From: Luteibacter jiangsuensis
GTDB taxonomy: Bacteria; Pseudomonadota; Gammaproteobacteria; Xanthomonadales; Rhodanobacteraceae
Direction: 5' to 3'
DNA length: 64,000 nt
NCBI RefSeq assembly: GCF_030812295.1
Contig: NZ_JAUSSK010000004.1
Span: 310,001 to 374,000 of the forward strand
Position numbers and translations under genes: made by a program
In this document: positions 9,269-33,938 of the stretch, piece by piece
How positions within the stretch are numbered: position 1 is the stretch's first letter
How the letters are laid out: every line of letters starts with the position of its first letter
The notes under the pieces: generated by a model
What the model was told of the DNA's origin: nothing
Database searches by the model: none
Seen by the model: the letters and a program-made list of their open reading frames with translations, nothing else

Positions 9269-9938
9269 CCGGATCGACCATGCGGTATCCGATACCGTGA
9301 CGCGTGTGGATCAGCGGTTTCTCGAAGGGTTTGTCGATGGCCGCACGCAGCCCGTGGATATGTACGCGAAGCGAATCCGAATCCGGCAGTTCCTCGCCCC
9401 AGACGCGCTGTTCGAGGTCCTGGCGGGTCACCACGGATGGGCTGGCCTCCATCAGCGCCTGCAACAACTTCAGGCCGATGGGGTTCAGCTGGATCGACTT
9501 GCCTTCGCGGGTCACCGTGAGCGTGTCGAGGTTGTAGGTGAGGCCGCCGACCTTGAGCACCCTGCTCTGCGGGCCCTTGCCGCGCCGTGCCAGCACTTCC
9601 AGGCGCGCCGCCAGTTCCTGCAGGGCGAACGGCTTGGTCATGTAGTCGTCGGCGCCGGACTCGAAGCCCGTGAGCTTGTGCTCCAGCGAATCGCGCGCCG
9701 TGAGCATGAGGACGGGCGTCTGCTTGTGCGCTTCGTGGCGCAGCTTCTTGGCGACATCGAGCCCGTCCATCCCCGGAAGGGTCAGGTCGAGCACGATGAC
9801 GTCGAAATCGTGCACCACGGCCAGATGCAGGCCGGTGACGCCGTCGCCGGCGAAATCGACCACGTGACCACGATCCTCGAGGTAGTCCCCGATGTTGGTC
9901 GCGATGTCGGTATTGTCTTCGATGACCAGAACGCGCAT
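9252..9938 (-). CDS. OmpR/PhoB-family response regulator
   Basis: 228 residues. The receiver domain has acidic pair E7/D8, phospho-acceptor Asp51 (IVLDLTLPG) and Lys in DDYMTKPF; the C-terminal winged helix runs from about 125 to 220 (SPSVVTRQDLEQRVWGEE, RVHIHGLRAAIDKPF, HTRHGIGYRM). DNA-binding transcription regulator phosphorylated by the kinase encoded immediately downstream. Closely similar regulators are common in Xanthomonadales, but I cannot assign a specific name. It is the first gene of the pair; a terminator for rimK lies about 80 bp upstream. Confidence 0.93.
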   Translation of the reverse strand: MRVLVIEDNTDIATNIGDYLEDRGHVVDFAGDGVTGLHLAVVHDFDVIVLDLTLPGMDGLDVAKKLRHEAHKQTPVLMLTARDSLEHKLTGFESGADDYMTKPFALQELAARLEVLARRGKGPQSRVLKVGGLTYNLDTLTVTREGKSIQLNPIGLKLLQALMEASPSVVTRQDLEQRVWGEELPDSDSLRVHIHGLRAAIDKPFEKPLIHTRHGIGYRMVDPDAVQA

Positions 9939-10020
9939 GCGGCACTCCGTTGTGCGGTCGCTTTGAGTCTTATGAGTATTGCGACGGCAAGCTTAACGGG
10001 GAAACCGTGAAGCGGACAGA

Positions 10021-10059
10021 ACTAAAAGAGAGGCCCGGACGGGGGAACCCGCCCGGGCC
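10021..10059 (-). terminator. Intrinsic terminator after rimK
   Basis: Arms GGCCCGGACGGG (10032-10043) and CCCGCCCGGGCC (10048-10059) pair with one A/C mismatch around a GGAA loop. On the minus strand the hairpin is followed by TCTCTTTTAG (10031-10022). It lies just downstream of the rimK stop and insulates the response-regulator gene. Confidence 0.75.
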
Positions 10060-10132
10060 GAAAGAACTACTGCCCCGATACCGTCACCCCGCGTCGCGGA
10101 ATCACAGTGGGACCTTTATAGGGGAGCGCCCT

Positions 10133-11068
10133 TTAAATCGCTGTTAACCCCTTCGGCGCCTTGGGCCGGCGGGCCTTCGGCACCGCCGGACGCCCGGCCA
10201 GCCGGGTCTCGCAATGGGCCACGATGGCGCCGGCGACGTCCACACCGGTGCTGCCCTCGATGCCCTCCAGCCCCGGGGATGCATTGACCTCCAGAAGCAG
10301 CGGCCCGCGCGAGGAGCGCAGCAGGTCCACGCCCGCCACCTCCAACCCCAGCGCCGAGGCGGCCTCGATCGCCACCCGGCGCTCGTCGTCGGTCAGCGTG
10401 ACCTGGGCGGCGCTGCCGCCTCGATGGAGGTTCGCGCGGAACTCGCCCGGCGCCGACGATCGCTGCATCGAAGCCACCACCTGGTCGCCGACCACGAAGC
10501 AGCGCAGGTCCTGGCCGTTCGCTTCACGGATGAACTCCTGGACCAGGAAATTGGCGTAGAGGCCACGGAACGCCTCGATGACGCTCTGCGACGCCGAGCG
10601 CTTCTCGGCCAGGACCACGCCAGCGCCCTGGGTTCCCTCGTTGAGCTTGATGACATGCGGCGGGTCGCCAAGCATCGCCATGAGGTCGGCGGTGTCGTCG
10701 GGGTTGTCGCCGAAGGCGGTCAAGGGCATGTCCACGCCGCGTGCCGCCAGCAATTGCAGGCAGCGCAGCTTGTCGCGGGCGCGCAGCACGGCGTCGGACG
10801 GGTTCGGGGTGAAGACCCCCATCAGTTCCAGCTGGCGCAGCACCGCCGTGCCATAGAACGTGCTGGAGGCCCCTATCCGGGGGATGACGCAGTCCACCGG
10901 GCCGAGCGGCTTGCCCTTGAAGTGGATGGCGAAGGATTGTGGCGCGATGCTCATGTAGCAACGCAGGGGGTCGATCACCCGCACCGTGTGCTTGCGCTTG
11001 CGCGCAGCCTCCACCAGCCGCTGGGTGGAGTAGAGCCGCGCGTTGCGCGACAGGATGGCGATCTTCAT
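10133..11068 (-). CDS. rimK: RimK-like ATP-grasp ligase (ribosomal S6 glutamylation)
   Basis: 311 residues. ATP-grasp enzyme: [18 protein letters not shown] and [20 protein letters not shown] (RimK N-domain), then [17 protein letters not shown] (ATP loop), NFLVQEFI, and [15 protein letters not shown] (metal/ATP-binding Glu-Asn). RimK adds glutamate residues to the C-terminus of ribosomal protein S6, tuning translation. The start ATG overlaps the end of the upstream protease-like gene by 4 nt (ATGA), the rimB-rimK arrangement known in Pseudomonas; no rimA is visible. A Lys/Pro/Arg-rich tail ([12 protein letters not shown]) extends beyond the fold. A longer in-frame extension upstream overlaps the protease gene and is not used. 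Confidence 0.9.
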
Positions 11069-11514
11069 GACGGGTCCCGGACGGCGCGGCGCGGCGTCTG
11101 CGAGTAGGAAAGCGAAGGATCGACCAGGAAGCGCCCGTCGAGGGCGGTCCGGCCGAGCAGGAGGGGAAACAGCATATGCCGCCGGTCGGTCAGGTTGACG
11201 TCGGCCATGAAGCGGTGGTCGGCCAGTTCCACTTCCGTGCGGATGAACCAGCGCATGGTGGTGTGACCGCCCGAGTCGGTGACCGAGCGCTGACCCGTCG
11301 CCTTCGCCTCGCAAGGCGCGGACACCCCACCCTTGCGCGTGGTGCGCACCTGGAAGCGCAGCCAGATACCGTCGGACCGCTGGTCCACCTCCAGCCATTC
11401 GACGTGCAGCGACGACGAGCGCGCGCCCGTATCCAGCTTGGCCTTGAGGACGGTGATGCCGAGCGACGGAAGTGCGAGCCGTTCGCGCCAGCCTAGGGTG
11501 ATGACGTCAGTCAT
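11065..11514 (-). CDS. rimB: Retropepsin-like protease, RimB/Zn_protease family (PF05618)
   Basis: 149 residues from the ATG at 11514. [19 protein letters not shown] holds the Asp-Thr-Gly active-site triad of single-domain aspartic proteases, and [21 protein letters not shown] is the family C-terminal motif. In Pseudomonas RimB works with RimK on glutamylated S6; the same overlapping gene pair here (4-nt overlap) supports that role. The family name includes ATP-dependent zinc protease from early annotation, which the sequence does not support. Symbol by context and family, moderately sure. Confidence 0.82.
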
Positions 11515-11701
11515 GGGGTCTGGAGCGACGGGTAGGGGGGACGACGGCGGGTCGCGGGGAACGACCCATGTTCGCGGCGGCACGCCTCGATGGGAAAAGG
11601 ATGCCGAAGGTGCGATGCCGGCGCAACTGTACCGGGCGGCCGATGGGCAGCCCTCGTCACGGGCATGAAAAATGCGTGAAGCGCAGAAGCGGCCTGGCGG
11701 C

Positions 11702-13009
11702 TCAGCCCGAGGCCACGCCCTGCCCTTTCCGCATCATGTACAGGGAGCTGGCGACGCCGACCAGGGCCACGAGGCCGACATAGTGCGCAGGCCCCAGTCC
11801 GCCCGCGGTCTTCGCCAGGTAGCCCACCAGTACCGGGGTGGCCGCGCCGCAAATGGCGTAAGCCACGTTATAGGACAGGGAGATACCCGAAAAACGAATG
11901 GCCGGCGGAAAGGCGGCGACCAGCACCGATGGCACGATGCCCGCCACGCCGGCGAACAACCCGGCCAGCGAATACAGCGCAAGCAGGTGGGTGCCGCCGC
12001 TCCTCAGGTCGAGGTACAAGGCATAGGTGCTGGCGGCCAGCCCCACCGAAGCCACCAGCATCGCACGCGCCTTGCCCTGCCAGTCCACCAGCAGGCCACC
12101 GAGCACGCAGCCGACGCACAGGGAAAACGCCGCGAGGCTGCCCCCGGTGAAGGCCCGGGCAGGCTCCACATGGAAGGCCGTCTGCATCAGCGTCGGCGTC
12201 ATCAGGATCACCACGACGATCGCCGCCGTGAGCACCCAGGTGACGACCATCGACAGGGCCACGCCCGGCAGGTGATCGCGCAGCACGACCCACGCGGGCA
12301 ACTCCGTCGTCAGTTCCTTGCGCTCGCGCATGCGCGCGAACACCGGCGTCTCGCTGAGCCAGCGTCGCAGGTACACCGCGAAGAACCCGAACACGCCGCC
12401 AAGAAGGAACGCGATGCGCCAGCCATGGTCGAGCATCGCCGCCTCGGACATGCGGGCGCTCATGGCGGCGGCGACCAGCGAACCGATGAGGATGCCGAAG
12501 GTGAGGCCGGAACTCAGGCTCGCGCACGCCAGGCCGACCCGGTGCCGCGGCACGTGCTCGGCAACGAAGACCCAGGCGCCCGGCACCTCGCCGCCGATGG
12601 CGATGCCCTGCACCACGCGCAACAGCGTCAGCAGCACGGGCGCCAGTACCCCGATCGTCGCGTACGTGGGCAGGAAACCGATGCACAAGGTCGGCACCGC
12701 CATCAGGAACACGCTGAGCGTGAACATACGCTTGCGGCCGACCCGGTCGCCGAAATGCGCCATCACCATGCCACCGAGCGGCCGCGCGAGATAGCCCACG
12801 GCGAAGATGCTGAAGGCCTGCAACTGTGCCACCCAGTCGGAGGTTCCCGGCGGGAAGAACAGATGCCCTAGCGTCTTGGCGAAGTACGCGAAGATCACGA
12901 AGTCGTAGAACTCGAGCGCGCCACCGAGCGCGGACAGGATCAACGTCTTGGCATCGCCACGGCCCAGCGGCCGGCGGTCGGTCATGTCGGTATCGATGAT
13001 GGCGCTCAT
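11702..13009 (-). CDS. MFS transporter, metabolite:H+ symporter type
   Basis: 435 residues with twelve predicted membrane helices. The N-terminal GALEFYDFVIFAYFAKTLGHLFFP and GRPxGG-like ARPLGGMVMAHFGDRVGRKRMF loop 2-3 motif mark the MHS subfamily (ProP, KgtP, ShiA relatives), which imports organic acids, osmolytes or aromatic acids with protons. RVVQGIAIGGEVPGAWVFVAEH is the helix-5 motif. Substrate cannot be deduced. No helix is missing and the start ATG is well placed. It stands between the rim pair and the GH13 gene, all on one strand but with gaps of 187 and 37 bp. Confidence 0.9.
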   Translation of the reverse strand: MSAIIDTDMTDRRPLGRGDAKTLILSALGGALEFYDFVIFAYFAKTLGHLFFPPGTSDWVAQLQAFSIFAVGYLARPLGGMVMAHFGDRVGRKRMFTLSVFLMAVPTLCIGFLPTYATIGVLAPVLLTLLRVVQGIAIGGEVPGAWVFVAEHVPRHRVGLACASLSSGLTFGILIGSLVAAAMSARMSEAAMLDHGWRIAFLLGGVFGFFAVYLRRWLSETPVFARMRERKELTTELPAWVVLRDHLPGVALSMVVTWVLTAAIVVVILMTPTLMQTAFHVEPARAFTGGSLAAFSLCVGCVLGGLLVDWQGKARAMLVASVGLAASTYALYLDLRSGGTHLLALYSLAGLFAGVAGIVPSVLVAAFPPAIRFSGISLSYNVAYAICGAATPVLVGYLAKTAGGLGPAHYVGLVALVGVASSLYMMRKGQGVASG

Positions 13010-16318: not shown

Positions 16319-18052
16319 TTACCAACCCATGCCGACACCCACGCCGGCGGAGGTTTCGCTTCCGCTGACGGCACCTCCGAAGGTCACGTTGGCATGACGG
16401 GTAAGCTGCCGCGAATAGCCCACGGCGAAGGCGGATCGCCCACCGTAGGCACCTGCTCCGAAACCCAACCGGTTCTCGTCGGCCACTCCCTGCGTGCTGA
16501 ATGCCATTTGCGCCATGGCCGTACCCATCGCACCCACCTGATCAAGCCGCTTGTTGACTTGCTGGAACTGGTCGGAGACCTGGCGACGGTAGTTGTCGAA
16601 GTCTCCACGGCTCACCAGATTGCCCAGCTTGCTGTCCGTGTAGCTGCGTGCCTGGTCCAGGGTATTTTGGTCCCCTGCGTCCGCGTAGCTGCGCGCCGTC
16701 GCCAGGGCCTGGTCCACCTGTCCCGTATTGGCGGCATCGGTGGCGAGCGCACCGGCGCCCACGCTGGTGATCTGACGTGTATTCGAGACCGTTCCCACCG
16801 AAACGGTGTTCGCGCGATCAGCAACGGATCCCTGCCCCAGCGCGACCGAGCTGGCGGCGCTCACGACGCTGTCACTGCCGACCGCGACGCCGCCGGATCC
16901 CACCGGAACCGATGCCTGGCGACCACCCGCCGCGCCATCGACGGCGATGGCTCCGCTACCACCCTGTCCTTGCAATGTCCGGACGCCGTCGAGGGCATGC
17001 GAGACCGCACCATCCAAAGTGCTCAGGGCCGAACCGACGTCATGATACGTATTCCCCTGAATCAGGTAAGACGGCGGCTGTACGACACCATCCATACCCA
17101 CGATGGAGCCACCTCCGAGGAACGAAGCAAAACCCGCGGCCTGCTGAACGCCGGTGGCGAACACCTGCCTGACCTGACCCACCGTAGCCGCATCGGTGTC
17201 GTCGGTACCATCGGCCACGTTGGTGATCTGCCGCTTGAGACCGAAGATAGCGTTGCCCACGGAGACGCTGGCGTCGCGGTCCGCAAAGCTGTCCGTGCCC
17301 AGTGCCACCGAGTGCTCGCCCGAGGCGATGGCTGCGGCGCCGAGCGCTACCGACTGCGCACCCATCGCGGCGCTGCGAAAGCCAAGCGCGATGGCATTCG
17401 TCGCATCGACACCCGAAAAGGGCACACCGGCTTGCGCGCCACTGCCGATCGCGATGCCATTCGTCGCGACTGTCTGCGCGTCGGAACCCAGCGCCAGGCC
17501 GTCGTCGGCGGTAACGCTGGCGTGGAATCCCGCCGCCAGCGATCGGGCGCCGTTGGCGGTGGCGGCACCACCCAGAGCGGTCGCCGCGTCGCCTGTCGCG
17601 GCACTGCCTATGCCGAGCGCGGTGGAAGACTGGCCCACCGCGTTCGCACTCGCACCGATGGCCGTCGCACCCGTTCCCGAAGCACTGGCGCCCGGCGCGG
17701 GGTCGCCGTTGGCATCGGTGACGAGAGGATTTCCGTTGGCGTCGACCGCGCGGCCACCGATGGCGACGCCACTGTCTCCGGTCGCACTGGCCTTCGCGCC
17801 GATCGCCACGCCGGTCAAACCGGTCACGATGACACCGTCACTACCGTCGCTGGCGCCGTTTGTCTGGAGCAGGCCTGAGGATGGTGTCGTGGATTGTGCG
17901 CTGGCTGCGAGCGGGGAGGCGAGAAGCATCGCGGCCACCGCAAGTGATGTCGCGAGTCCGAGGGCCTTCTTCGCAGGCGACGGCGCAATTTCATTTGCGA
18001 CAACCCGTGCATCGAGTGAAGCGTTCCAAACAGTGAAGCAGATTCGATTCAT
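16319..18052 (-). CDS. Trimeric autotransporter adhesin (YadA/Hep-Hag type)
   Basis: 577 residues from ATG 18052, chosen because NRICFTVWNASLDARVVANE is the extended signal-peptide region typical of type V secretion, followed by the ordinary signal core ending SPLAASAQ. The passenger consists of many 14-residue left-handed roll repeats (G.GA.A.G..S.ALG) from about residue 60 to 300, two neck-like SVGN/SVGTVSNTRQITSV(A/G)AG segments (about 275 and 455), a short coiled-coil stalk (FDNYRRQVSDQFQQVNKRLDQV) and the YadA anchor (residues about 505-577) ending in hydrophobic GVGMGW. Forms a trimer on the cell surface, likely for attachment or biofilm. Transcribed from its own ECF-type promoter at 18285-18312 with a 5' leader of over 200 nt. 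Confidence 0.93.
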   Translation of the reverse strand: MNRICFTVWNASLDARVVANEIAPSPAKKALGLATSLAVAAMLLASPLAASAQSTTPSSGLLQTNGASDGSDGVIVTGLTGVAIGAKASATGDSGVAIGGRAVDANGNPLVTDANGDPAPGASASGTGATAIGASANAVGQSSTALGIGSAATGDAATALGGAATANGARSLAAGFHASVTADDGLALGSDAQTVATNGIAIGSGAQAGVPFSGVDATNAIALGFRSAAMGAQSVALGAAAIASGEHSVALGTDSFADRDASVSVGNAIFGLKRQITNVADGTDDTDAATVGQVRQVFATGVQQAAGFASFLGGGSIVGMDGVVQPPSYLIQGNTYHDVGSALSTLDGAVSHALDGVRTLQGQGGSGAIAVDGAAGGRQASVPVGSGGVAVGSDSVVSAASSVALGQGSVADRANTVSVGTVSNTRQITSVGAGALATDAANTGQVDQALATARSYADAGDQNTLDQARSYTDSKLGNLVSRGDFDNYRRQVSDQFQQVNKRLDQVGAMGTAMAQMAFSTQGVADENRLGFGAGAYGGRSAFAVGYSRQLTRHANVTFGGAVSGSETSAGVGVGMGW

Positions 18053-18284
18053 GTCCATTCCAAAGGTTAGGTGCATGCCGCCGCTGGCGCTCCGCCAGTG
18101 GTGTCGTGTGAACAACCTCGATGAAGCCCTTCGCCGAAAGCGGGCAAGAGGACTCCCTGCCGGGTCGGACCCAACATGCAAGCGACAGTGAGATAGGGAT
18201 CTAGCGTGAGCAGCGAGCGCGGAATCGACGAACGCCGACCGCGGCGGCGTGCCGGGTCCGTGTTGCGTCGTTATCGCTCGTAGA

Positions 18285-19930: not shown

Positions 19931-22240
<2,310 letters not shown>

Positions 22241-22254
22241 AGGCGAAGGTCATG

Positions 22255-22290
22255 CAGGGCCACCATGCATCTGCGTGGTGGCCCTGTCGT
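22255..22290 (+). terminator. Intrinsic terminator after katG
   Basis: CAGGGCCACCA (22255-22265) and TGGTGGCCCTG (22276-22286) form a perfect 11-bp stem with a 10-nt loop, followed by TCGTTTC. It sits in the 52-bp gap between katG and the convergent ABC exporter. Confidence 0.75.
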
Positions 22291-22292
22291 TT

Positions 22293-23969
22293 CTAGCTTA
22301 CGCGATGCCCCGCTGCGGGGTCGCGCGCGGCATACGCCGCGCCGCCATCTCTGCGGCGGGTATCGGAAACGATGCGCCCGGCTTCGAGCTTCACCACGCG
22401 ATCGGCCAGCGAGAAATAACGGTCGTCGTGAGTGATCGCCACGACTGTCTTGCCCCGTGCTTTCAGTTCCGGCAGTAGCATGCGATAGAAATAGTCGCGG
22501 AAGTGCGCGTCCTGATCGGCGGCCCACTCGTCGAAGAAGAAGATATCGCGGTCTTCCGCATAGCACTGCAAGAGCGCCAGGCGCTTTCGCTGCCCGGTGG
22601 AAAGGGTGAGCTTCGACAATTCCCCCTGCGTCACCTGGACCTGCGAGCCCAGGCCCAGCGATACCAGCAGCGCCCGGATACGTTCGTCGGGTAGGGGATG
22701 TCCCGCCACGTCGAGGACATGCGGAAAGAGGAAGAAATCGCCGAACACGCCCGTGAAACGCTCACGATGCCGCTGTCTGTCCAGCTCTAACGGCACGCCG
22801 TCGACGACGAGTTCGCCTGTGCGTGGCGTGAGCAGCGAGGCGAGCAGGAGCAACAAGGTCGATTTGCCGCTGCCATTGCCTCCGACGATGAAGAGGAGTT
22901 CGCCGCGCCGGATTTCCATGTCGACCGGGCCGAGTGCTATTCGTCCATCCTCATCGCCCGCATAGGCGTAGCTGACGCCCCTGAGCGCGATGCTGCGCCA
23001 TTCGTCGCCGATTCCCGGGTCCGCCCCGTGTGCGGGTGGATCGACCTCACCACCAAGATCCAGGCCGACACGCTGGAGGTGTCGCAAGCTGGCGGTGCCG
23101 ACGCCCACCTGCCGTGCCGCGCTCACGATGAACGCGACCGGGCCACTGAGGAACAGTGCGCCGATCACGAAGCGCATGATCGTCGCCTGAGGCAATGCCA
23201 GGCTCGCGTAACCGACATAGACGATGACGAAGACCGATGCGTAGATCACCGCCGACGACCACGCCTCATTGAAACCAAGACCCGTGTGCACCTGGATCAT
23301 CAAGCGACGGGAACGGTGGATGGCCGGGCGGATGAGCTCATCGGCGACATGCCTGGCACGCGCGGCATTGAGCGCCAGTTCCTTCTTTCCTTCGCTGAGG
23401 TAGCGAAAGTACTCGAACACCTTTTCGTTCGCTTCGCGCAAGGCGTCGAAGCGGCGGCGTAGAAACCGCTCCAGCACCAGCGACGCCACGACCGTGACGC
23501 AGAGAAAGGCGGCGAGGATACCCAGGAGCGGCGGCGAAACGCTGGCGAGGTAACTCGCATAGAGCACGACGAGCAGCCCGTTGTACGCCAACAAGGGTGC
23601 GACGAGCACCAGCGGCGCGATGCTCGCCACGTCCTCGATGAGCGAACCGAAGATCGCGTGCTTCTCGTTGGCCAGCTTCTCGTACTCCAGGTCGATGAAA
23701 CGCCGCGAGAGGTCGATCCGCAGTTGCGCGACGAGATCGCCACCCAGACGGGCCAGGATGAACTGCGACATCGCGCCTGTCGCGAGCACGGCGACCAGCC
23801 AGCCCGCACCCTCCAGCAGGGACGTGGCGCGGCCGGCATGCACGCCGTTGGCCGCCAGCTCGTTGATATACGACAGCAGGGCCATGGTGGACAGGGCGCT
23901 CGCGGCGGACAGGGCCACGGCACCGAGTACGAGGGCACGGTGTCGAAGGATGAAGCGCTTGAGGATCAT
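22293..23969 (-). CDS. Cyclic-peptide-type ABC exporter (fused membrane and ATPase domains)
   Basis: 558 residues of the SyrD/PvdE family. Six membrane helices lie in residues 1-310, then the nucleotide-binding domain: Walker A GGNGSGKST (about 365), signature LSTGQRKRL (about 460), Walker B DIFFFDEW followed by the H-loop AITHDD. There is no N-terminal C39 peptidase domain, unlike the LanT exporters usual for class II lanthipeptides; the protein begins directly with the first helix. It is divergent from the precursor gene with a 215-bp gap, so it is the probable exporter of the modified peptide. Family members carry lipopeptides and siderophore precursors across the inner membrane. Confidence 0.9.
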   Translation of the reverse strand: MILKRFILRHRALVLGAVALSAASALSTMALLSYINELAANGVHAGRATSLLEGAGWLVAVLATGAMSQFILARLGGDLVAQLRIDLSRRFIDLEYEKLANEKHAIFGSLIEDVASIAPLVLVAPLLAYNGLLVVLYASYLASVSPPLLGILAAFLCVTVVASLVLERFLRRRFDALREANEKVFEYFRYLSEGKKELALNAARARHVADELIRPAIHRSRRLMIQVHTGLGFNEAWSSAVIYASVFVIVYVGYASLALPQATIMRFVIGALFLSGPVAFIVSAARQVGVGTASLRHLQRVGLDLGGEVDPPAHGADPGIGDEWRSIALRGVSYAYAGDEDGRIALGPVDMEIRRGELLFIVGGNGSGKSTLLLLLASLLTPRTGELVVDGVPLELDRQRHRERFTGVFGDFFLFPHVLDVAGHPLPDERIRALLVSLGLGSQVQVTQGELSKLTLSTGQRKRLALLQCYAEDRDIFFFDEWAADQDAHFRDYFYRMLLPELKARGKTVVAITHDDRYFSLADRVVKLEAGRIVSDTRRRDGGAAYAARDPAAGHRVS

Positions 23970-24184
23970 CGATGCGTCCTTCCACCCGTCGTGGCGACGT
24001 CATCGCATGGTGCCAGACACCGGACACCGGCATGCGTCGCCTGTTGCGCGCAAATTCGGCAAACAACGCAAATCCTCGTCCCGGAATCATCAGAATGCTC
24101 CGGTGGCGTCGTCGTGGACGCGCCCGCCGCGACGCGCTTCTTCAACGTCCGGGCGCACATTCGTAACACCTGAGGAGTACTCGT

Positions 24185-24373
24185 ATGCAGACCGACAAGA
24201 TCCTGGCGGGATGGTTGAGTGGCGCCGACAGCGTAGGTGGGTATGACAATCCGGCGGGTTCGCTCTACACCGAGGGCCATGCCCAGACGGTGATGGCGAT
24301 GACCAGCACGGACATCGCACTGATTTCCAACTGTAGTTCCTGTACGGCCTCCCGGCCGGGCGTCTGCTGCTAA
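24185..24373 (+). CDS. lanA: Class II lanthipeptide precursor
   Basis: 62 residues immediately before lanM; strong ribosome site GAGGAG (24172-24177). The C-terminal part, ISNCSSCTASRPGVCC, holds all four Cys (50, 53, 61, 62) and several Ser/Thr (40, 41, 42, 48, 51, 52, 54, 56) that can be dehydrated, allowing up to four thioether rings. The leader is acidic-neutral with SVGGYDNPAG at 16-25; NPAG recalls the HPAG of the actagardine leader. A Gly-Gly at 18-19 is too far upstream to be a normal cleavage point (it would leave a 43-residue core), while VMA (36-38) would leave a 24-residue core; the true site is not known. No close known peptide recognised. Confidence 0.88.
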   Translation: MQTDKILAGWLSGADSVGGYDNPAGSLYTEGHAQTVMAMTSTDIALISNCSSCTASRPGVCC

Positions 24374-24387
24374 CTCGCGGTAGCCGC

Positions 24388-24415
24388 GATAGCCGTGGCC
24401 AACACCACGGCTATC
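24388..24415 (+). terminator. Attenuator hairpin between precursor and lanM
   Basis: GATAGCCGTGG (24388-24398) and CCACGGCTATC (24405-24415) form a perfect 11-bp stem with a 6-nt loop, 15 nt after the precursor stop, followed by CCTTCG. The weak T-run suggests partial read-through, giving more precursor than synthetase transcript, as seen in other lantibiotic operons. It may also stabilise the short precursor mRNA. Confidence 0.65.
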
Positions 24416-24459
24416 CCTTCGCCATCCTAGAAACCACAACGGTATCGTCGGGACCGCCC

Positions 24460-27330
24460 ATGGATGCAACCGCGTCGCAGAACGCCTTCGCCCCAGTCAT
24501 CGCCTTCCTTGCGGACGACGCACGCCGGCGACTCGCCGAGGACATCGCCCGTCAATCCGGGCTCGATGACATGGAACGCCTCCTCGTCGCAAAGGTCGCG
24601 GAACGCGCCTTGCTCGACAACGCGGAGCGAAAGCTCAACCGCGTACTCCTGCTGGAACTGCACGCGGCAAAGCTCTCCGGTGATCTGCCCGAGGGAACCG
24701 AAGCCGAGCGTTTCGCCGCCTTCGTCGCGCAAGCCATGACGCCCGCTTTCGTCGCGGCGATCGATCGCCGCTATCCCGTGCTGATCCCCCGCCTCGCGCG
24801 GGTGTTGAACCAGCAACGCCATGCCATCGCTTCCATGCTTTCGCGGCTGGCCGCCGACCGCGAAGCCTTGTCCCTCTTCGTGGGGACCGATCTTGGTGAG
24901 CTGCGCTCGCTCTACCTCGGCGAGGGCGATGTCCACGAGGGCGGACAGTCCGTGGCACGCCTGACTTTCGCCGGCGGCACGGTCATGTACAAGCCGAGGT
25001 CGCTACGCGTCGACGCCGTACTGGATCGTTTTCTCGACACGGTGCTGCACGACGATCCTTCGCGCATACGCGTACCCGCGGTGCTCGACCGGGGCGATTA
25101 TGGATGGAGCCGCCACGTCGACCATGTTCATTGCACCGACGACGCGCAGCTTGCCGTCTTCTATCGCAACATCGGGCATTGGCTCGCGGTCATGCGATTG
25201 CTCGGCGGCACCGACATCCACTACGAGAACCTGATCGCGTCGTCCACCATCCCATACGTGGTCGATGTCGAAAGCCTGTTCGTCACGGAGATTCCGCTTC
25301 CGCCCTCGCAGAAGGGCGAAGCCGTCGACCTCGCGCAGGCGCTCATCCGCTCCTCGGTGCTGCGCACGGGACTCGTCCCCTTCCGTGCGCCAGTGCTGGG
25401 CCTGGACGGCGTCGACATCTCCGCCATCGGCGCGCTTCAGGGCGAGCAACCGAAGGTCCGCGTTCCGGAGATCGTCGATGCCGGGACGACCGACGCCCGG
25501 GTCGGACTGGTCAGCGTCGAGATAGAGACCGGCAAGAACCATCCCTGCACCAACCCCGACATCTCACGTTTCTGGGAAGACATCGTCACGGGCTTCCGCA
25601 CGATGAGCGATGCGCTCGCCGAACGGCACCACAATGGAGCGCTCACGCCCTTGCTCGAAGCCTTCGTCGGCTGCCGTATACGACGCATCCGGCGGCCGAC
25701 CCAGGCGTATGTCGAGGTGATGCGCATGCTCTGGCATCCGGCATCACTTCACGACGAACCGGCCGCCATCGAGCGGGCGCGCGATCTCCTGGCGCGGAAT
25801 GCCGCCGTCTCGCCCGTCGCCCCTTCCGATCCGGCCATCATCGCCGGTGAGATCGACGACATGCGCCATGGCGACGTTCCCGTCTTCGCCAATGTTCTGG
25901 ATGAGTCGCAGCGGGACGAGGTGTTCCAGGCCTGGCTGGACATGCGTATCGAGCTGGAGGAACTGACCATTCGCGGCGCCCTCGTTACCGCCCACCTCAA
26001 TGTGCGGCTCAACGACGACAAGCGTTCGCCCTACGATCTTTCCGCCCGGAACGCTCATGCCGGCGATCTCGATCGGCGGCGGCGGGCGATGGCCCGGGAG
26101 ACGCTCGAACAACTCCTTCGCCTGTCCGTGCGCGGTGACGACGGCACCATGACCTGGATCAGCCCGATCCTCGGCCGTGGCGGCTGGACGATGCGCACGC
26201 TGCAGTCCAATGTCTACGTCGGCCTGGGCGGTATCGCGCTGGCACTCGCCGGATACGCCGAGGAAATGCGGCATGGCCGCGTCGACGAAGTCGCCGGGGT
26301 CACCGAGGCATTGCATGGCGTGCTCCGCATCCTGCGTGCCGCCGAGGACACCGACGAAGCCGAGGCGATCGGCGGTTTCATCGGGCTGGGTTCGCAGGTA
26401 CAGACGTGGCTGACCCTCGATTACCTGCACCCGGGCGAGGAATTCCTGTCCCGCGCCGTGGCGCAGGCGACACGCATGGAACGCTGGGATATCGAGAACG
26501 AACGCGTGCTCGACATCCTGGAAGGCGTGGGCGGCGCGATCGTTCCCCTGCTCAACCTCGCGGACGCCACCGGCGATCCGCGCTGGCTGGCCCTCGCGGA
26601 GCGGGCGGGCAGGCATCTCGAGGCGACAGCCATCGTCGACGAGCGTGGCGCGCGTTGGCCCGCGTCGATCTTCAGCGAACCGATCGGGGGGTTCGCCCAT
26701 GGCGCGACGGGTACCGGCTGGGCACTCACACGCCTCGGCCTCAGCGATGCCGGAAACGCCATCGACCGCCACCGCTGGCTCAACCTCGCCGAGTTGGCCT
26801 TCGATTTCGAGGAATCGCTATACGATACGAAGGCGGGCAACTGGATCGACGTACGCAAACCGGACAGCGACGACTTCGCGAACACCTGGTGCCACGGCAG
26901 CGTCGGCATCGGACTGGCGGCATGCGACCTCTACGAGCGCACACGGCACCCACGCCACCTGGACACGCTGCGCCGCGCGGTGCGCGCCGCCGCCGAAGGT
27001 GGCTGGGGACACAGTCACACCCTGTGCCACGGTGATCTCAGCACCTGGGAGTTGCTGACGCGTGCGGCGCGGCTCGATCCGTCCCTCGTGCCGGACACGG
27101 GACTGCCAGCCGCCGCCATCGTGCTGTCCAGCATCGAGGAGCACGGCATCGTCGGTGGCCTGGCACGCGATGCGTTTACCCCAGGCCTGATGAGTGGGGT
27201 CTCGGGATCGATCCTGCAGTTGGCCCGGATGCACCCGGCATGCCGGATGCCGTCGCCGTTGCTGATGGAGTATCGCGTGGCCATAGCTTCGCACGGTACG
27301 GCTCACGAGTACGACGTGGTGGCGACTTAG
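24460..27330 (+). CDS. lanM: Class II lanthipeptide synthetase
   Basis: 956 residues, the normal LanM size. The N-terminal kinase-like dehydratase (DUF4135, residues about 90-560) phosphorylates and eliminates Ser/Thr: LTFAGGTVMYKPRSLRVD, LLGGTDIHYENLI and VVDVESLF are its nucleotide-handling motifs. The C-terminal LanC-like cyclase (about 580-950) adds Cys thiols to the dehydro residues; zinc ligands are Cys811 (TWCHGSVG), Cys856 and His857 (LCHGDLST), all present. The toroid repeats (GGAIVPLL, GFAHGATGTGWAL) are intact. Only a weak ribosome site precedes the ATG. It acts on the 62-residue precursor encoded 86 nt upstream. No sign of decay, so the cluster should be active. Confidence 0.96.
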   Translation: MDATASQNAFAPVIAFLADDARRRLAEDIARQSGLDDMERLLVAKVAERALLDNAERKLNRVLLLELHAAKLSGDLPEGTEAERFAAFVAQAMTPAFVAAIDRRYPVLIPRLARVLNQQRHAIASMLSRLAADREALSLFVGTDLGELRSLYLGEGDVHEGGQSVARLTFAGGTVMYKPRSLRVDAVLDRFLDTVLHDDPSRIRVPAVLDRGDYGWSRHVDHVHCTDDAQLAVFYRNIGHWLAVMRLLGGTDIHYENLIASSTIPYVVDVESLFVTEIPLPPSQKGEAVDLAQALIRSSVLRTGLVPFRAPVLGLDGVDISAIGALQGEQPKVRVPEIVDAGTTDARVGLVSVEIETGKNHPCTNPDISRFWEDIVTGFRTMSDALAERHHNGALTPLLEAFVGCRIRRIRRPTQAYVEVMRMLWHPASLHDEPAAIERARDLLARNAAVSPVAPSDPAIIAGEIDDMRHGDVPVFANVLDESQRDEVFQAWLDMRIELEELTIRGALVTAHLNVRLNDDKRSPYDLSARNAHAGDLDRRRRAMARETLEQLLRLSVRGDDGTMTWISPILGRGGWTMRTLQSNVYVGLGGIALALAGYAEEMRHGRVDEVAGVTEALHGVLRILRAAEDTDEAEAIGGFIGLGSQVQTWLTLDYLHPGEEFLSRAVAQATRMERWDIENERVLDILEGVGGAIVPLLNLADATGDPRWLALAERAGRHLEATAIVDERGARWPASIFSEPIGGFAHGATGTGWALTRLGLSDAGNAIDRHRWLNLAELAFDFEESLYDTKAGNWIDVRKPDSDDFANTWCHGSVGIGLAACDLYERTRHPRHLDTLRRAVRAAAEGGWGHSHTLCHGDLSTWELLTRAARLDPSLVPDTGLPAAAIVLSSIEEHGIVGGLARDAFTPGLMSGVSGSILQLARMHPACRMPSPLLMEYRVAIASHGTAHEYDVVAT

Positions 27331-27437
27331 CCGTCCTTGCCTGGCATAGCCGAGTCCGCTGGTCATGCCATCAGTCATGCCAACCATCCAGGCAGGCCAG
27401 GCATCCCACCTGCTCACTCATCAGCGCAGGGGATCAC

Positions 27438-28262
27438 ATGCATCGCTGGATATCCGCCACCCTCCTGGCCGTGGCGTCGCTCGCCGCCACGGCGCAGGAG
27501 GTGCCGAAAATGATGTTCCTCGGCTCGGGCCACCTGGCCAACCACAATCGCGACGTGGCCAATACGCATGTGGAGGACGTGCGGACGCCGGCACGCCAGG
27601 CCGAGATCGAGCAGATGGTCGCGCGGCTCGCGGCCTGGAAGCCCACGCACATCGCGATCGAATACCCCTATGCCAAGCAAGCCGAGCTCGATAAGCGTTA
27701 CGCGGACTATCGGGCCGGCCGTTACATCTTGACGGCAGACGAAACCGACCAGATCGGATTGCGGCTGGCCAAACAGCTGGGACTACCGCGTGTCGATGCC
27801 GTCGACTGGAATGGAGATGCCCCAGGCAAGGATGCCGACTACGACTGGATGGCATGGGCGAAGGCACATGGCAAGGCGGACCTGCTGGAAAACACCGTCG
27901 CCCCGTGGAAAGCCACGGCGGCGAAGGAGACCGAGTACCTGAAAGGCCACAGCGTGACCGACTGGTACCTCATGTGGAACGATCCCAAATGCATGAATCA
28001 GGATCAGAAAGGCTATTTCGAGCTACCGCTCTTCGGCGACGACACCAACAATCCGGGCGCGGCATGGGTCGGCCAATGGTATGCGCGCAACCTGCGCATC
28101 TTCACGCATATCCGCGCGCTGGCGACGAAGCCAGGGGACCGCGTGCTCGTCGTCTATGGCGCCGGCCATGGGCCGCACTTGCGTAAAGACGCGGTGGAGT
28201 CCAGCGTGTTTGAATTGGTCGAACCGCAGCCGTGGCTGACTGGGAACGCGACCGCCAGATAG
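27438..28262 (+). CDS. Secreted DUF5694 protein, TraB/GumN/TIKI-like fold
   Basis: 274 residues from ATG 27438 (AGGGGA upstream); signal peptide HRWISATLLAVASLAATAQ. Two GX2H motifs, Gly29-Ser-Gly-His32 (MFLGSGHL) and Gly241-Ala-Gly-His244 (VVYGAGHG), plus Glu75 (IAIEYP), match the metal-site plan of the TraB/TIKI/EreA-like superfamily, in which TIKI proteins are metalloproteases. It follows lanM by 107 bp in the same direction. Because the exporter here lacks a peptidase domain, this periplasmic protein could remove the leader; that is inference. DUF5694 genes also occur elsewhere without lanthipeptides, so it may be a bystander. Confidence 0.8.
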   Translation: MHRWISATLLAVASLAATAQEVPKMMFLGSGHLANHNRDVANTHVEDVRTPARQAEIEQMVARLAAWKPTHIAIEYPYAKQAELDKRYADYRAGRYILTADETDQIGLRLAKQLGLPRVDAVDWNGDAPGKDADYDWMAWAKAHGKADLLENTVAPWKATAAKETEYLKGHSVTDWYLMWNDPKCMNQDQKGYFELPLFGDDTNNPGAAWVGQWYARNLRIFTHIRALATKPGDRVLVVYGAGHGPHLRKDAVESSVFELVEPQPWLTGNATAR

Positions 28263-28353
28263 GTGGCCAAGAAACCACCCGGACGAGCGGTATCGTCGAT
28301 CTACACGTCTCCGGGTATCGCCCGGTCGACAGCATGGAAGAGCCGAGCCCCAT

Positions 28354-29238
28354 CTACCTCAGCGGTACGGTGAACGATCCGCTGGGGTACTGCTGCGCCA
28401 TGAATTCCACGAAAGCCCGTACTTTCGGGCTTTGCAGACGTCGCGACGTATGCAACACCCAAAGCTCGACGTCATCACCCGCGATCCCCCATGTCACGAG
28501 GTCTCCGCTTTCGAGCAGGCTTCCCACGATCGATTGCGGCAGCAAGGCAACACCCGCGCCCGAGGCAACGGCATCGCGGACCATCAGGAGCGACGACAGG
28601 CGCAGCACGGGTTGCGGCTCGATGGCGAGCTTGCCATTGCGAACGGTCCACACATCGCCATCGCGATAGGTGGACATGACCACGGCCGGCATTTTGAAAA
28701 GTCCGTCCCGGCGACCCTTGGGCATCGGGACGGATGGCGCCGCGATGAGGACCAACCGATCCCGGGCGAAGCAACGCCCGACGAGGTCGCTGTCCTTCTG
28801 CGGATTGATGCGGATAGCCACATCGAAATGTTCATCGACCAGGTCGACGAAACGATCCTCCGACACGGTCTCGATCTGTACTTCCGGGTAACGCTCGAGG
28901 AATTTCGCGGCCAGCCCTCCCAAGGCGAGTTGCGAGAACAACTGCGGTGCCGCGATACGTAAACGACCGCGTGGCATGGCAAGCCCATCGCGCACGGCCG
29001 CGAACGCTTCGGCAACTTCGCGCATGGGCCCTTCCGTGCGCCCCACCAACAACTGGCCTGCGTCCGTCAGCTCCAGGCGTTGCGTGCCGCGCTCGATAAG
29101 ACGAGCCCCTAGCTCTTCTTCCAGATCGCCAACCCGACGCGACAGCGTCGCCTTGGATCGGCCCGTGGCACGAGCGGCCTTTCCAAAGCCTCCGTGGGTT
29201 GCCACGAGACGGAAATCATCGAGCGCATTGAGATCCAT
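28354..29238 (-). CDS. LysR-family transcriptional regulator
   Basis: 294 residues. N-terminal winged HTH (DLNALDDFRLVATHGGFGKAARATGRSKATLSRRVGDLEEELGARLIER) followed by the periplasmic-binding-protein-like effector domain (LRIAAPQLFSQLALGG, FDVAIRINPQKDSDLVGR, GAGVALLPQSIV). Unlike most LysR proteins the recognition helix has KATLSRRV, the variant of the subfamily that regulates quinone/NAD(P)H reductases. It is divergent from an NmrA-like oxidoreductase with a 156-bp shared control region, the standard LysR-target layout, so it probably controls that gene in response to an electrophile or small aromatic. Effector unknown. Confidence 0.93.
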   Translation of the reverse strand: MDLNALDDFRLVATHGGFGKAARATGRSKATLSRRVGDLEEELGARLIERGTQRLELTDAGQLLVGRTEGPMREVAEAFAAVRDGLAMPRGRLRIAAPQLFSQLALGGLAAKFLERYPEVQIETVSEDRFVDLVDEHFDVAIRINPQKDSDLVGRCFARDRLVLIAAPSVPMPKGRRDGLFKMPAVVMSTYRDGDVWTVRNGKLAIEPQPVLRLSSLLMVRDAVASGAGVALLPQSIVGSLLESGDLVTWGIAGDDVELWVLHTSRRLQSPKVRAFVEFMAQQYPSGSFTVPLR

Positions 29239-30339: not shown

Positions 30340-31668
30340 TCAGTCTCGCGACACCACGGCCAGGGCATCGCTCGTTGGCTCATTGGCCAAAATGAAGGCC
30401 TTGATCAATATCCGGTTGGACACCAGGATTGACGGCCACTGATGTGCCCACGCCTTGTAGGCACCCCATGAATAGCCCCGCTTCCAATTGCTGGCCATGG
30501 TATCCATGGACCGCTTGCTTGCGGCAAGGAAGGATGCTTCGATGGCGGTGCCTCTGAGTTCCAGGATGCTGGCCAGGTACACAAGCCATTTGGCCAGATG
30601 CTCGTATTGCTCCCAGGCGCCATCGTCACCCGTGAGTTTGGTCTTGTCGTCCAGCACGCGTCCCAAGGTTGCAACGACCTTCGAGTCATTGATGCTCATG
30701 CCCGTGGCGCCTATGGACGCCACAATCTCATAGAACGAATGCTCAAGCTTCAAGTACGCCGATGCATAAGAGACGTGCTTGTTTTGAATGACATTCCGGA
30801 TGTTTTCGACGGAGCGTTCCACCTTCTCTGCGCTGGGCAGGTCCGCATTGACCTCCGCGAAGAAGTCCACGACCTCCATTTCGTCGATCACGCGGATGCC
30901 AAAACAATGGGCGTAGTAGTCCTTGATGTGGGGGCTCACTGCCTCACGAGAGACCAAGAAAATGTTGGATCCGAGCACCTGTGCGCGGGAGAATCCCTTG
31001 TAGTCGCTCAAGATGGCTTTCAGGTTCGTGTCACCCAAGGAGTATCCGAGGATGACGACTGTGTTCTCGTGCAGGATGGTGCTCAGCTTGCGCGAAAAGT
31101 AGCTCTGCCCGTTAATGAAGCGGAAGTAGTCTTCCGAGGTCACAACCATGTTGTCTGGAGAATCTACCGAGCCGTGAACGTGGTACACCGTGATGCGCGC
31201 CTTGGAGCGGGGCACCGGGAGGCCTGGCGTGAGCGAGTGACACGCTTGGAGTCCCGCAAGCTGCTCGAGTAGCTTGTCGTAATTGGTCGTGATTGCGCTT
31301 AGCTCGTGCTTTGACAGGAACGCCTGAATAGGTTCGTTGCCTTTGCCAAGTGTCAGCCCGGACACTTGGGCGGCGATGTCGGTGTAGATGTCCCTGCCAA
31401 GCTTACGCAGTTCCAGCTGGAGCACCTGTGCGGCCTCTTCCATGGCCAGCGGATGCGGATGGTCGCGCGGGAACAGCGCGACCAGCAACTCATCTTTCTT
31501 CGGTAGCGGCTCGCAAACAGCCTCCAACAGGCCCTGCCAGGTGGGAGCCTGCCCGTCGGTGACCGCTTTGGAAAACCCGGTGCCGGTGAATAGGCAGAGG
31601 CGCCCGGAGGCGGCGGCATAAGCGATTTCGAAGATTCCGTTGGCCTTGGGCATGCATGCTGCTTCCAT
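30340..31668 (-). CDS. SIR2-like domain protein, probable phage-defence NADase
   Basis: 442 residues from ATG 31668 (AGGGG upstream); a longer in-frame extension has no similarity. SIR2-type NAD site: GRLCLFTGTGFSKAV (residues about 20-34), AITTNYDKLLEQL (Thr-Thr-Asn-Tyr-Asp), YHVHGSVDSPDNMV (His of the active site) and VVILGYSLGDTNLKAI. In defence systems such as DSR, Thoeris ThsA and prokaryotic Argonaute partners this fold degrades NAD+ upon phage infection. The C-terminal 170 residues are alpha-helical and match nothing I know; they could sense the phage. It is cargo of a tRNA-linked island, which supports defence. Codon use is less GC-skewed than the neighbours, consistent with transfer. 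Confidence 0.85.
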   Translation of the reverse strand: MEAACMPKANGIFEIAYAAASGRLCLFTGTGFSKAVTDGQAPTWQGLLEAVCEPLPKKDELLVALFPRDHPHPLAMEEAAQVLQLELRKLGRDIYTDIAAQVSGLTLGKGNEPIQAFLSKHELSAITTNYDKLLEQLAGLQACHSLTPGLPVPRSKARITVYHVHGSVDSPDNMVVTSEDYFRFINGQSYFSRKLSTILHENTVVILGYSLGDTNLKAILSDYKGFSRAQVLGSNIFLVSREAVSPHIKDYYAHCFGIRVIDEMEVVDFFAEVNADLPSAEKVERSVENIRNVIQNKHVSYASAYLKLEHSFYEIVASIGATGMSINDSKVVATLGRVLDDKTKLTGDDGAWEQYEHLAKWLVYLASILELRGTAIEASFLAASKRSMDTMASNWKRGYSWGAYKAWAHQWPSILVSNRILIKAFILANEPTSDALAVVSRD

Positions 31669-32256
31669 AATGATGCCCCTGTAGCGGCACGCTGTTTCAA
31701 TTCTTGACGGCGCTGGAGAGGGGTACCAGGCAGGCGGTGCCTCAAGCTCCCGGAAGAACACCCGATAACAGCAGCTCCTTTCCCACAAGGCCGCCGCGTG
31801 CTGCCCCTCCTTCGATCGCTTCTCGCCCGCCTTGACCAAGTTGCCTTAGCCACCGGCGTTGCCTTGATGTTGCTGGCCCCAGGACGATGGCTAGGTTTAT
31901 ACTTTTCGCGATCGGAAGCTTCCTTCCCATCTGGCGGTCCTCGCTACCTATCGCGAAGGTCATCGCCACCAGGGCGGTACGGCGGATCAAATGTCTGGCA
32001 GCATCGTGTCCACGCCGACGCTTCGCGCTGTCCCGCGTGCTGATCGCCCCATCTTGGCTGGCCGCTGCTTGGCTCGCCATGCTCTGGCTGGTGTTGCTCG
32101 CATCCCTCCCGATGCTCGCTCGCGACCGAGAGCCGAACGAACCGTGCTTCGTCTGGGCCATCCAGATAACGCTGCTGGTAACGCCCGCACCGATCCACGA
32201 CCAATTGAAGCTCGGCGGGGGAGCAGGTCAGTCGACGAGGACATGGTTGGTGCGCA
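31669..32256. other. Island interval without a convincing gene
   Basis: About 590 bp between the SIR2 gene and the integrase. A plus-strand frame at 31887-32330 (147 codons) could encode a small protein with one hydrophobic stretch (WLAAAWLAMLWLVLLASLP), but it lacks a good ribosome site, overlaps the integrase 3' end on the other strand and competes with an equally long minus-strand frame (31742-32161). Neither is supported. Possibly remains of deleted island genes. Confidence 0.4.
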
Positions 32257-33770
32257 TCAACCTCCCTCCTTCTGGCGCCTTGGCCGCAAAGGAATGGCAA
32301 ATTGCCCCCGCCTGTACGCGGGAACCTTGACGCACGGGTCGAACCTGGCGAGTGCGGTCACACGTTCCGGCAGACTTGGTGCATCGATGTAGAACTTGGG
32401 CAAAACACCGCCTTCGAGCGTGTGGCCGGTGATGCGGGAAATCGTCCCATGGCCCACGCCCGCCCGGTCGAGCCTGGTTGCAAAGGTGTGGCGGAAGGCA
32501 TGAAAGCCCATGCCGGGGTCGGCAACACCCCGCGCCTTGATGTAGACGGAAAACTGCCGGCTCATCTGCCTGCCGAACCCGTTGCCGTCGTTGTTTGGGA
32601 GGTGTGGGAATAATCGCTCGTGGTTGGCACTGCGCATGTCCTCGACAAAGTCGAGGAATCCAGCGTCCAGCAAAGGTTTCGCAATGGGGATGAAGCGGAG
32701 GGAGCCTTTGTTTTTGAGCTTCTGACCCGGCTTTCCCTTCCGGATGTAGAACCCCGGCACGCCGTGTTCCACGGCAATGTCATCGACATGCAGCTGGGAG
32801 AGACCTCGGTCACCCGCGCACCTGTGAACAACCCGATGAGCGGCGCCCAGAACCGGTGCGGGTATTTCGCAGACCATGCGGCAAAGGCCACGGGCTCAAA
32901 GATGGCATCGAGCTCGGCTTGGGTAAACGCACGCCCCGTGTCTTCATCCGTATCAAAACTCGACGCTTTGGCAATGCCCTTCAACGGATTCCGCTGAACC
33001 TTGTCGTTCTCGATGAGGAAGTTGAAGAACGCCGACAGGCGCTGCCGGTGCTTGCTCAGGGTGTGACCGGCGGGTGGTTCGACACCAACGGCCTTGGCCT
33101 TCCTGATGATGTCCCGCACGGACAAATCCTTGTTGCCGGGAATCTTCGACGCGTTTCGCGGCCAAAAGCACACCTCGTCGAAGAACAACCGGCAGTCGTC
33201 CGAGGTCAGGGCGGCGACCGGCTTGTCGCCGATAATGCCGGCAAACAGGCGAAGGGTATGGCGACTGTCGAGAATGGTTTTCTTCTCACTTCCCGCCCGC
33301 TCCAAGTCACGCACATGCACCCCAAGCTGGTGGGTCAGCATGTCTTCCTGCTTGACCCGGCCCGGGCGCTGCACTGCCGGACCTTTTGCTTGTGGGGACG
33401 CCGCCTGCTCGCTCGCCTCTCTCACGATGGCCTGGAACTGCCGAGCATCCTGGTCGTTGTCGATTTGGACGTTGCGGAGGACGGTGCCGTTGGGCAATGC
33501 GACCTCTCCCAGCGTGAGGTCACCGCGCCCACCGCTGCGGGCAGCATCCAGCGCCTTTTTTAGGTCCACGACATTCCCCTGTCTGAGTCGGTCGAACGCC
33601 TCGGAGAGTGCCACAGCCATGGTCTCGGCAACCAGCCGAGCGCGGTCACCTTTGACCATCCGGAGAGGGCGAACAAGGAAGCGGGAGCCAACGACGGGCA
33701 GCAGGTCCGCAGGCACACGAAAGCGGACATAGAGTCCAGCAGGCCGATGCAGAAAAAGGGGCTTTGGCAC
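32257..33770 (-). pseudogene. int: Tyrosine-recombinase integrase, frameshifted
   Basis: The N-terminal two thirds (33770 to about 32804) and the catalytic C-terminus (about 32800 to 32257) are in different frames. The break lies in GAGAGA at 32798-32803: removing one GA restores FTGARVTEVSQLHVDDI. The joined protein would be about 503 residues: N-terminal domain, SAM-like core-binding domain (about 140-260), then catalytic Arg (TGARVTEV), His-X2-Arg (FHAFRHTFATR), GHT and Tyr (LPKFYIDA). The gene begins 95 bp from the 3' end of tRNA-Gly, the usual integration site, and runs away from it. A 2-bp duplication makes it inactive unless it is a sequencing error or rescued by frameshifting. Confidence 0.88.
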
Positions 33771-33864
33771 GAAGGCGATACCTCAAACGATACCTTTTTG
33801 AAGGGCCGTGATGGGTATCGCTGATTGCCTGCAACCGTTGTGCCGCAAGGGCTACAAAGGAAGC

Positions 33865-33938
33865 TGGAGCGGGTGAAGGGAATCGAACCCTCGTCAGTAG
33901 CTTGGGAAGCTACAGCTCTACCATTGAGCTACACCCGC
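33865..33938 (-). tRNA. tRNA-Gly (anticodon CCC)
   Basis: Minus strand from 33938: acceptor GCGGGTG, D arm GCTC/GAGC, anticodon stem GTAGC/GCTAC with loop TTCCCAA (anticodon CCC), T arm GAGGG-TTCGATT-CCCTT, acceptor CACCCGC, discriminator T and encoded CCA (33867-33865). All four stems pair (one G-U in the T stem). It serves as attachment site for the adjacent island. A second copy of its 3' end marking the far island border was not found. Confidence 0.95.

Follow-up and report, generated by a model that had tools for sequence, protein, structure and literature searches.

The window, that is, the whole stretch of 64,000 nucleotides of Luteibacter jiangsuensis DNA that we analysed, contains three adjacent genes that, judged from their sequences, very probably make and export a small sulphur-bridged peptide (Table 1). 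A short precursor gene is followed after a gap of 86 nt by a lanM gene in the same direction, and an exporter gene is divergent from both. All three lie where the initial annotation had placed them. Its description of the locus as a compact class II lanthipeptide cluster, with an exporter and a CxxC...CC core, is supported by profile matches and by conservation. A single LanM carries both a dehydratase and a LanC-like cyclase domain, and the gene next to its own encodes a precursor made up of a leader and a Ser/Thr/Cys core. We are highly confident that the predicted precursor, LanM and exporter constitute a minimal class II lanthipeptide cluster, of DUF6229 type and with its own exporter. The host genome (4.32 Mb) contains one LanM match and one DUF6229 match. 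The right end first given for the cluster (28262) is too far, because it takes in a DUF5694 gene found near the cluster in the fetched stretches of two of 14 loci of the same type, that of the window included. We rejected this gene as a cluster member.

Table 1. Features of the lanthipeptide locus (positions in the window)
Feature	Position	Strand	Basis
ABC exporter, cyclic-peptide export family, 558 aa	22293..23969	-	TIGR01194; Pfam; adjacent in 14/14 window-type loci
Ribosome-binding site of the precursor, GAGGAG	24172..24177	+	read from sequence; 7 nt before ATG
Lanthipeptide precursor, 62 aa, DUF6229	24185..24373	+	PF19740, E 7.6e-22; 14 orthologous frames; pN/pS by region
Hairpin, 11-bp stem after the precursor stop codon	24388..24415	+	14/14 loci; pairing and covariation
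LanM, class II lanthipeptide synthetase, 956 aa	24460..27330	+	TIGR03897; motifs aligned with LicM2 (6st5)

We regard the precursor as a real gene, not a chance open reading frame, because it matches DUF6229 (PF19740; 77.4 bits against a gathering cut-off of 25, model positions 3–62 of 62), because 14 genomes preserve the frame next to lanM, and because its pN/pS is low. The initial annotation, which had already described a Cys-rich precursor directly before LanM, had named conservation of this frame next to lanM in relatives as a test, and the frame passes it. The start codons of the relatives' precursors have similar purine-rich sites upstream, the choice of start codon itself having been weighted by such sites.

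The precursor consists of a leader (about residues 1–31, with NPAG at 22–25), a variable linker (32–47) and a core (about 48–62: S48 N C50 S51 S52 C53 T54 A S56 RPGV C61 C62). The four Cys residues, noted earlier as a CxxC and a terminal CC, are invariant across the 14 precursors of this type, as are S51, T54 and S56; position 48 is S or T, and S52 is replaced by G in two. Calculated as uncorrected proportions pooled over pairs in 14 genomes, the leader has a pN of 0.078, residues 32–47 one of 0.275 and the core one of 0.087. With pS at 0.47–0.52 by region, pN/pS is 0.15, 0.59 and 0.17, respectively. Leader and core are thus under purifying selection. The high pN of the linker and the low pN of the core suggest that the linker is the likely region in which the leader is cut and that the core is constrained. 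Of the two leader motifs pointed out previously, NPAG stands. SVGG, considered as a cleavage site, was rejected because it is variable: positions 18–19 are GG in eight of 14 precursors, DG in four and NG in two.

The LanM is full length, as had been proposed. It scores 553.9 bits against TIGR03897 (cut-off 304), 328.5 against DUF4135 (PF13575) and 118.2 against LANC_like (PF05147). C811, C856 and H857 align with WCHG and LCHG of LicM2. Together with D252, H254, E256, N257, D269 and E271 they are invariant in all 57 aligned LanMs. We take these residues, from work on CylM and HalM2, to be catalytic or zinc binding. By alignment, then, the catalytic and zinc motifs are complete, and the earlier claim that all zinc ligands are present holds.

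How widespread is this peptide? DUF6229 occurs in 42 of 233 Rhodanobacteraceae genomes, with 61 precursors over the cut-off (one row below it, G106:C157, was excluded from the set). Precursors with the CTASRP core of the window, which we call window-type, occur in 14 of the 233 genomes, one in each: 10 of 23 Luteibacter genomes and four of other genera. In a sample of 398 genomes of the order, with 15 candidates scored per genome, 33 match the window-type profile. Thirteen of these do so at E 2e-38 or better and are all Rhodanobacteraceae; the next match (E 9e-20) is a member of the Lysobacteraceae, G456. Its two precursors, with TRCSSCSASGGG[YQ]CC cores, share the topology of the L. jiangsuensis core and retain its four Cys as well as the four Ser/Thr positions, position 54 being S. 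In a sample of the class, two of 369 genomes exceed the DUF6229 cut-off, L. jiangsuensis itself and one genome of the same order; one further match, G513, lies below it at 23 bits. Among viral contigs, none of 26 pattern matches was confirmed. On the 5.7 Mb plasmid record of an actinomycete, Embleya sp. NBC_00888, a DUF6229-like precursor ending in CGTACSGSRTRPCC (L152, 8905–9174) lies before a LanM (9309–12119) that is 41% identical to that of L. jiangsuensis. The family therefore extends beyond the Xanthomonadales. The same record contains a second match besides this pair.

The family itself is known. Rhodanocin, a DUF6229 lanthipeptide of Dyella sp. 333MFSha, had its structure solved in 2022; according to the text passages of that study, it has four dehydrations, three rings (6–11, 8–14 and 12–23), a Dhb at position 18, and both LL-lanthionine and DL-methyllanthionine (PMC9576775). 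The same passages report weak inhibition of Klebsiella pneumoniae (126 µM) and that LahT150 failed to cut rhodanocin despite a possible double-Gly motif (PMC9576775). Strain 333MFSha is tabulated elsewhere among proposed L. mycovicinus strains (PMC11165876). In 24 mined Lysobacter genomes, the corresponding passages give DUF6229 as 21 of 27 unique class II precursors, in six precursor groups (PMC11451712). Those precursors share with ours the Pfam family and class II clusters, with several core topologies reported, and the text passages describe no product for them (PMC11451712). Few gammaproteobacterial lanthipeptides have been solved, and the 2022 study, in its available text, calls its two the first (PMC9576775). 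The remark that lanthipeptides from this group are rarely described is hence too strong for DUF6229, which is the family of rhodanocin (PMC9576775) and the majority class II type in those 24 Lysobacter genomes (PMC11451712). Likewise, the precursor is unfamiliar in its core, not in its family, whose members have already been shown to be lanthipeptide precursors. The titles, abstracts and text passages covered contained no description of the L. jiangsuensis core.

To compare the two cores, we used precursors of the CxxCTGS...C(G)A type, of which there are nine in five Luteibacter genomes. One of them (L029) ends in GG-TDMLVTDCAMCTGSIKNTIHIYCA. When counting starts at the T that follows GG, its Thr6, Cys8, Cys11, Thr12, Ser14, Thr18 and Cys23 coincide with the published ring residues, and hence we take these precursors to be of rhodanocin type, by published ring numbers rather than by published sequence. 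On this numbering the L. jiangsuensis core reads D-IALI-S6-N-C8-S9-S10-C11-T12-A-S14-RPGV-C19-C20. In this positional alignment with L029 on C8, the ring residues at 6 ([ST]), 8, 11, 12 and 14 are all present. The two systems also share the DUF6229 precursor beside a LanM and the NPAG leader. In contrast to rhodanocin, the L. jiangsuensis core is shorter and carries four Cys, the last two as a terminal CC. It ends at position 20, offers no Ser/Thr after 14 and has no counterpart of Dhb18 or of the single Cys23 onto which position 12 closes in rhodanocin. There is also no GG just before the core. Four Luteibacter genomes (L028, L030, L031, L034) have two different rhodanocin-type precursors in tandem, perhaps a two-peptide system. 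At L029 the four scanned neighbours are truA-like, PLP-enzyme, accD-like and glycosyltransferase genes. Two genomes (G004, G014) carry window-type, rhodanocin-type and CGTxCTGS-type precursors at separate loci.

The LanM tree covers 57 of 59 loci, each labelled by its first precursor only; a length filter dropped L034, which lies at a contig edge, and L085, whose LanM reading is too short. One side of the tree holds the rhodanocin type (4), the CGTxCTGS type (13) and the CCN type (3). On the other, the 14 window-type LanMs group together (SH-aLRT 99), alongside 22 of other types and G456, whose placement on that side is unresolved. The L. jiangsuensis LanM is about 39–41% identical to the rhodanocin-type LanMs and sits in the opposite deep half, which makes any transfer of ring order from rhodanocin uncertain. 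The shared CxxC[TS]xS motif either has an ancient origin or evolved on two occasions. We conclude that the locus is a variant within DUF6229 and not a separate kind of system. What is new is an untested branch of the family with an unusual cysteine pattern and an exporter.

The exporter had been called cyclic-peptide-type from the start, and it does exceed the TIGR01194 cut-off (295.3 bits against 286.2; model positions 14–552 of 554). It does not look like a processing exporter of the LanT type, given that the Pfam scan found no C39 peptidase domain and that the GG of the leader is variable. A PDB search returned 216 sequences, the best 60 of which are mainly matches to the ATPase region. Distant relatives of the exporter (44–47% identity) lie beside NRPS genes in three of five loci examined (G202, G450, G460). 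The stretches of the other two (G172, G105) are near-identical, with no NRPS gene in the ORFs read and, in G172, a beta-lactamase-like scanned neighbour. These NRPS-flanked relatives suggest that the exporter was recruited from exporters of the nonribosomal-peptide type. What sets the L. jiangsuensis exporter apart is its pairing with a ribosomal, LanM-modified peptide.

One could also argue that the exporter is an unrelated neighbour, as it is divergent here and its more distant relatives lie beside NRPS genes. This reading is strongly disfavoured, and we consider it extremely improbable. An ortholog adjoins in all 14 window-type loci in two different arrangements: in the 10 Luteibacter loci it is divergent, and in the four others it follows lanM on the same strand. 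By tblastn, the stretches fetched for 40 further DUF6229 loci, those of rhodanocin type included, contain no full-length match and, in five of them, partial matches (28–31%). Among the 23 Luteibacter genomes, orthologs of at least 71% identity occur in exactly the 10 with a window-type precursor. Relatives at 33–34% occur in two of the 23; those at 33% belong to G012 (L147) and G017 (L146). In the Rhodanobacteraceae, 17 of 233 genomes have an exporter at E 1e-100 or better. Fourteen of these, at 64% identity or above, are exactly the genomes with the window-type core; the other three, at 47–49%, are without it. The match in G001 contains an in-frame TAA, which might be only the gene's end. The linkage of exporter and core topology holds only within the Rhodanobacteraceae, because G456 has the topology and no such exporter at E 1e-50 or better.

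We infer the following route to the product. LanM would bind the conserved leader, dehydrate Ser/Thr of the core and close thioether rings. By position, two overlapping rings would form as in rhodanocin, S48–C53 (6–11) and C50–S56 (8–14), the second running from a Cys to a later Ser. A third ring would link T54 to C61 or C62; whichever of these two Cys is left over would most likely pair with the invariant S51 to make a fourth. For residues 43–62, a stretch whose N-terminus is provisional, the monoisotopic mass calculated with the loss of four waters is 1926.82. The exporter would then move the peptide through the inner membrane, and the leader would be removed within the linker by a protease whose gene lies elsewhere. 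By analogy with rhodanocin, we put the presence of rings 6–11 and 8–14 at slightly better than even. For four rings in the product the chances appear evenly balanced. We also considered one combined account, with four interlocked rings, including the one from Cys to later Ser; both residues of the terminal Cys-Cys locked; an exporter recruited from NRPS systems; trimming by a general protease after export; a core kept near constant by a fixed target or a signalling role; and a LanM branch far from that of rhodanocin. As a whole, this combination is unlikely to be correct in every part.

The product could instead be a three-ring analogue of rhodanocin, in which one terminal Cys is a free thiol or the terminal pair forms a vicinal disulfide, and we hold this to be a real possibility, if somewhat short of even. 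Rhodanocin itself has three Cys and three rings, and LanII-2B, another class II peptide in the text passages of the same study, kept a free Cys (PMC9576775). The dispensability of S52 points the same way. However, S51 and both terminal Cys are invariant not only in the 14 window-type precursors but also in both Lysobacteraceae precursors, and rhodanocin-type cores have no Ser at the position of S51. The constancy of the core raises another question, namely whether the peptide is antibacterial at all. A near-constant core might reflect one fixed receptor, as expected for a signal or a lanthipeptide with an internal role; the core pN/pS across 14 genomes and the lack of a conserved immunity gene in the ORF clustering (see below) are consistent with this idea, which we regard as possible yet doubtful. 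Antibacterials with a fixed target are also conserved, the exporter itself could give immunity, and the DUF6229 relative rhodanocin does inhibit K. pneumoniae, if weakly, in the passages cited (PMC9576775).

The three genes form a compact, conserved set that could readily be reconstituted. Such a system would test if the ring positions of rhodanocin carry over to a distant LanM branch, and in what way lanthipeptides are exported and trimmed in Gram-negative bacteria that use no LanT protease.

No protease, immunity or regulator gene is conserved at the 14 window-type loci when ORFs of at least 100 aa are clustered, because, LanM and the exporter apart, every cluster is limited to at most three of the 14. 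LanM and the exporter reached 13 of 14 each in this clustering, the ORF picker having missed one locus each, and 14 of 14 by tblastn. At three Dyella-type loci, a gene for a prolyl oligopeptidase (S9, an identity taken from a scan of the L068 protein only) lies beside the precursor (L068, 8769–11435; similar in L070 and L071). The enzyme could be the leader protease at those loci.

The hairpin between precursor and lanM is paired in all 154 cells of the alignment. Both sides have changed in four of 11 pairs (10 of 500 shuffles reach this), the score for covariation, 0.292, exceeds all 500 shuffles and all slides, and further pair types are weaker (reached by 48 of 500), all of these shuffle statistics being inflated by the relatedness of the sequences. 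Its core motif occurs at a single place in the host genome. A terminator scan did not flag the hairpin, and no T run lies 3′ of it in L. jiangsuensis; T runs do follow it in G012 and G076. The only terminator-like site in the scan is on the minus strand, away from the hairpin. The hairpin may act by partial termination or by protecting the 3′ end, and so keep the precursor above the enzyme. A promoter scan of 23900–24520 found no sigma-70-like site (0.3 expected by chance), and an Rfam scan of 22200–28400 gave nothing at the gathering score.

Two further observations concern the remainder of the window. A SIR2_2-domain protein (30340–31839) has weak PADLOC matches such as PDC-S25 and ThsA. Near it an integrase is encoded in two overlapping frames (32562–33770, DUF6538; 32257–32877, Phage_integrase) and adjoins a tRNA-Gly (33865–33938), so that 30340–33938 resembles a small integrated element that may carry a defence gene. 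On the other side of the cluster, the minus strand at 16319–18181 encodes a trimeric autotransporter adhesin that resembles YadA and has head, stalk and anchor domains.
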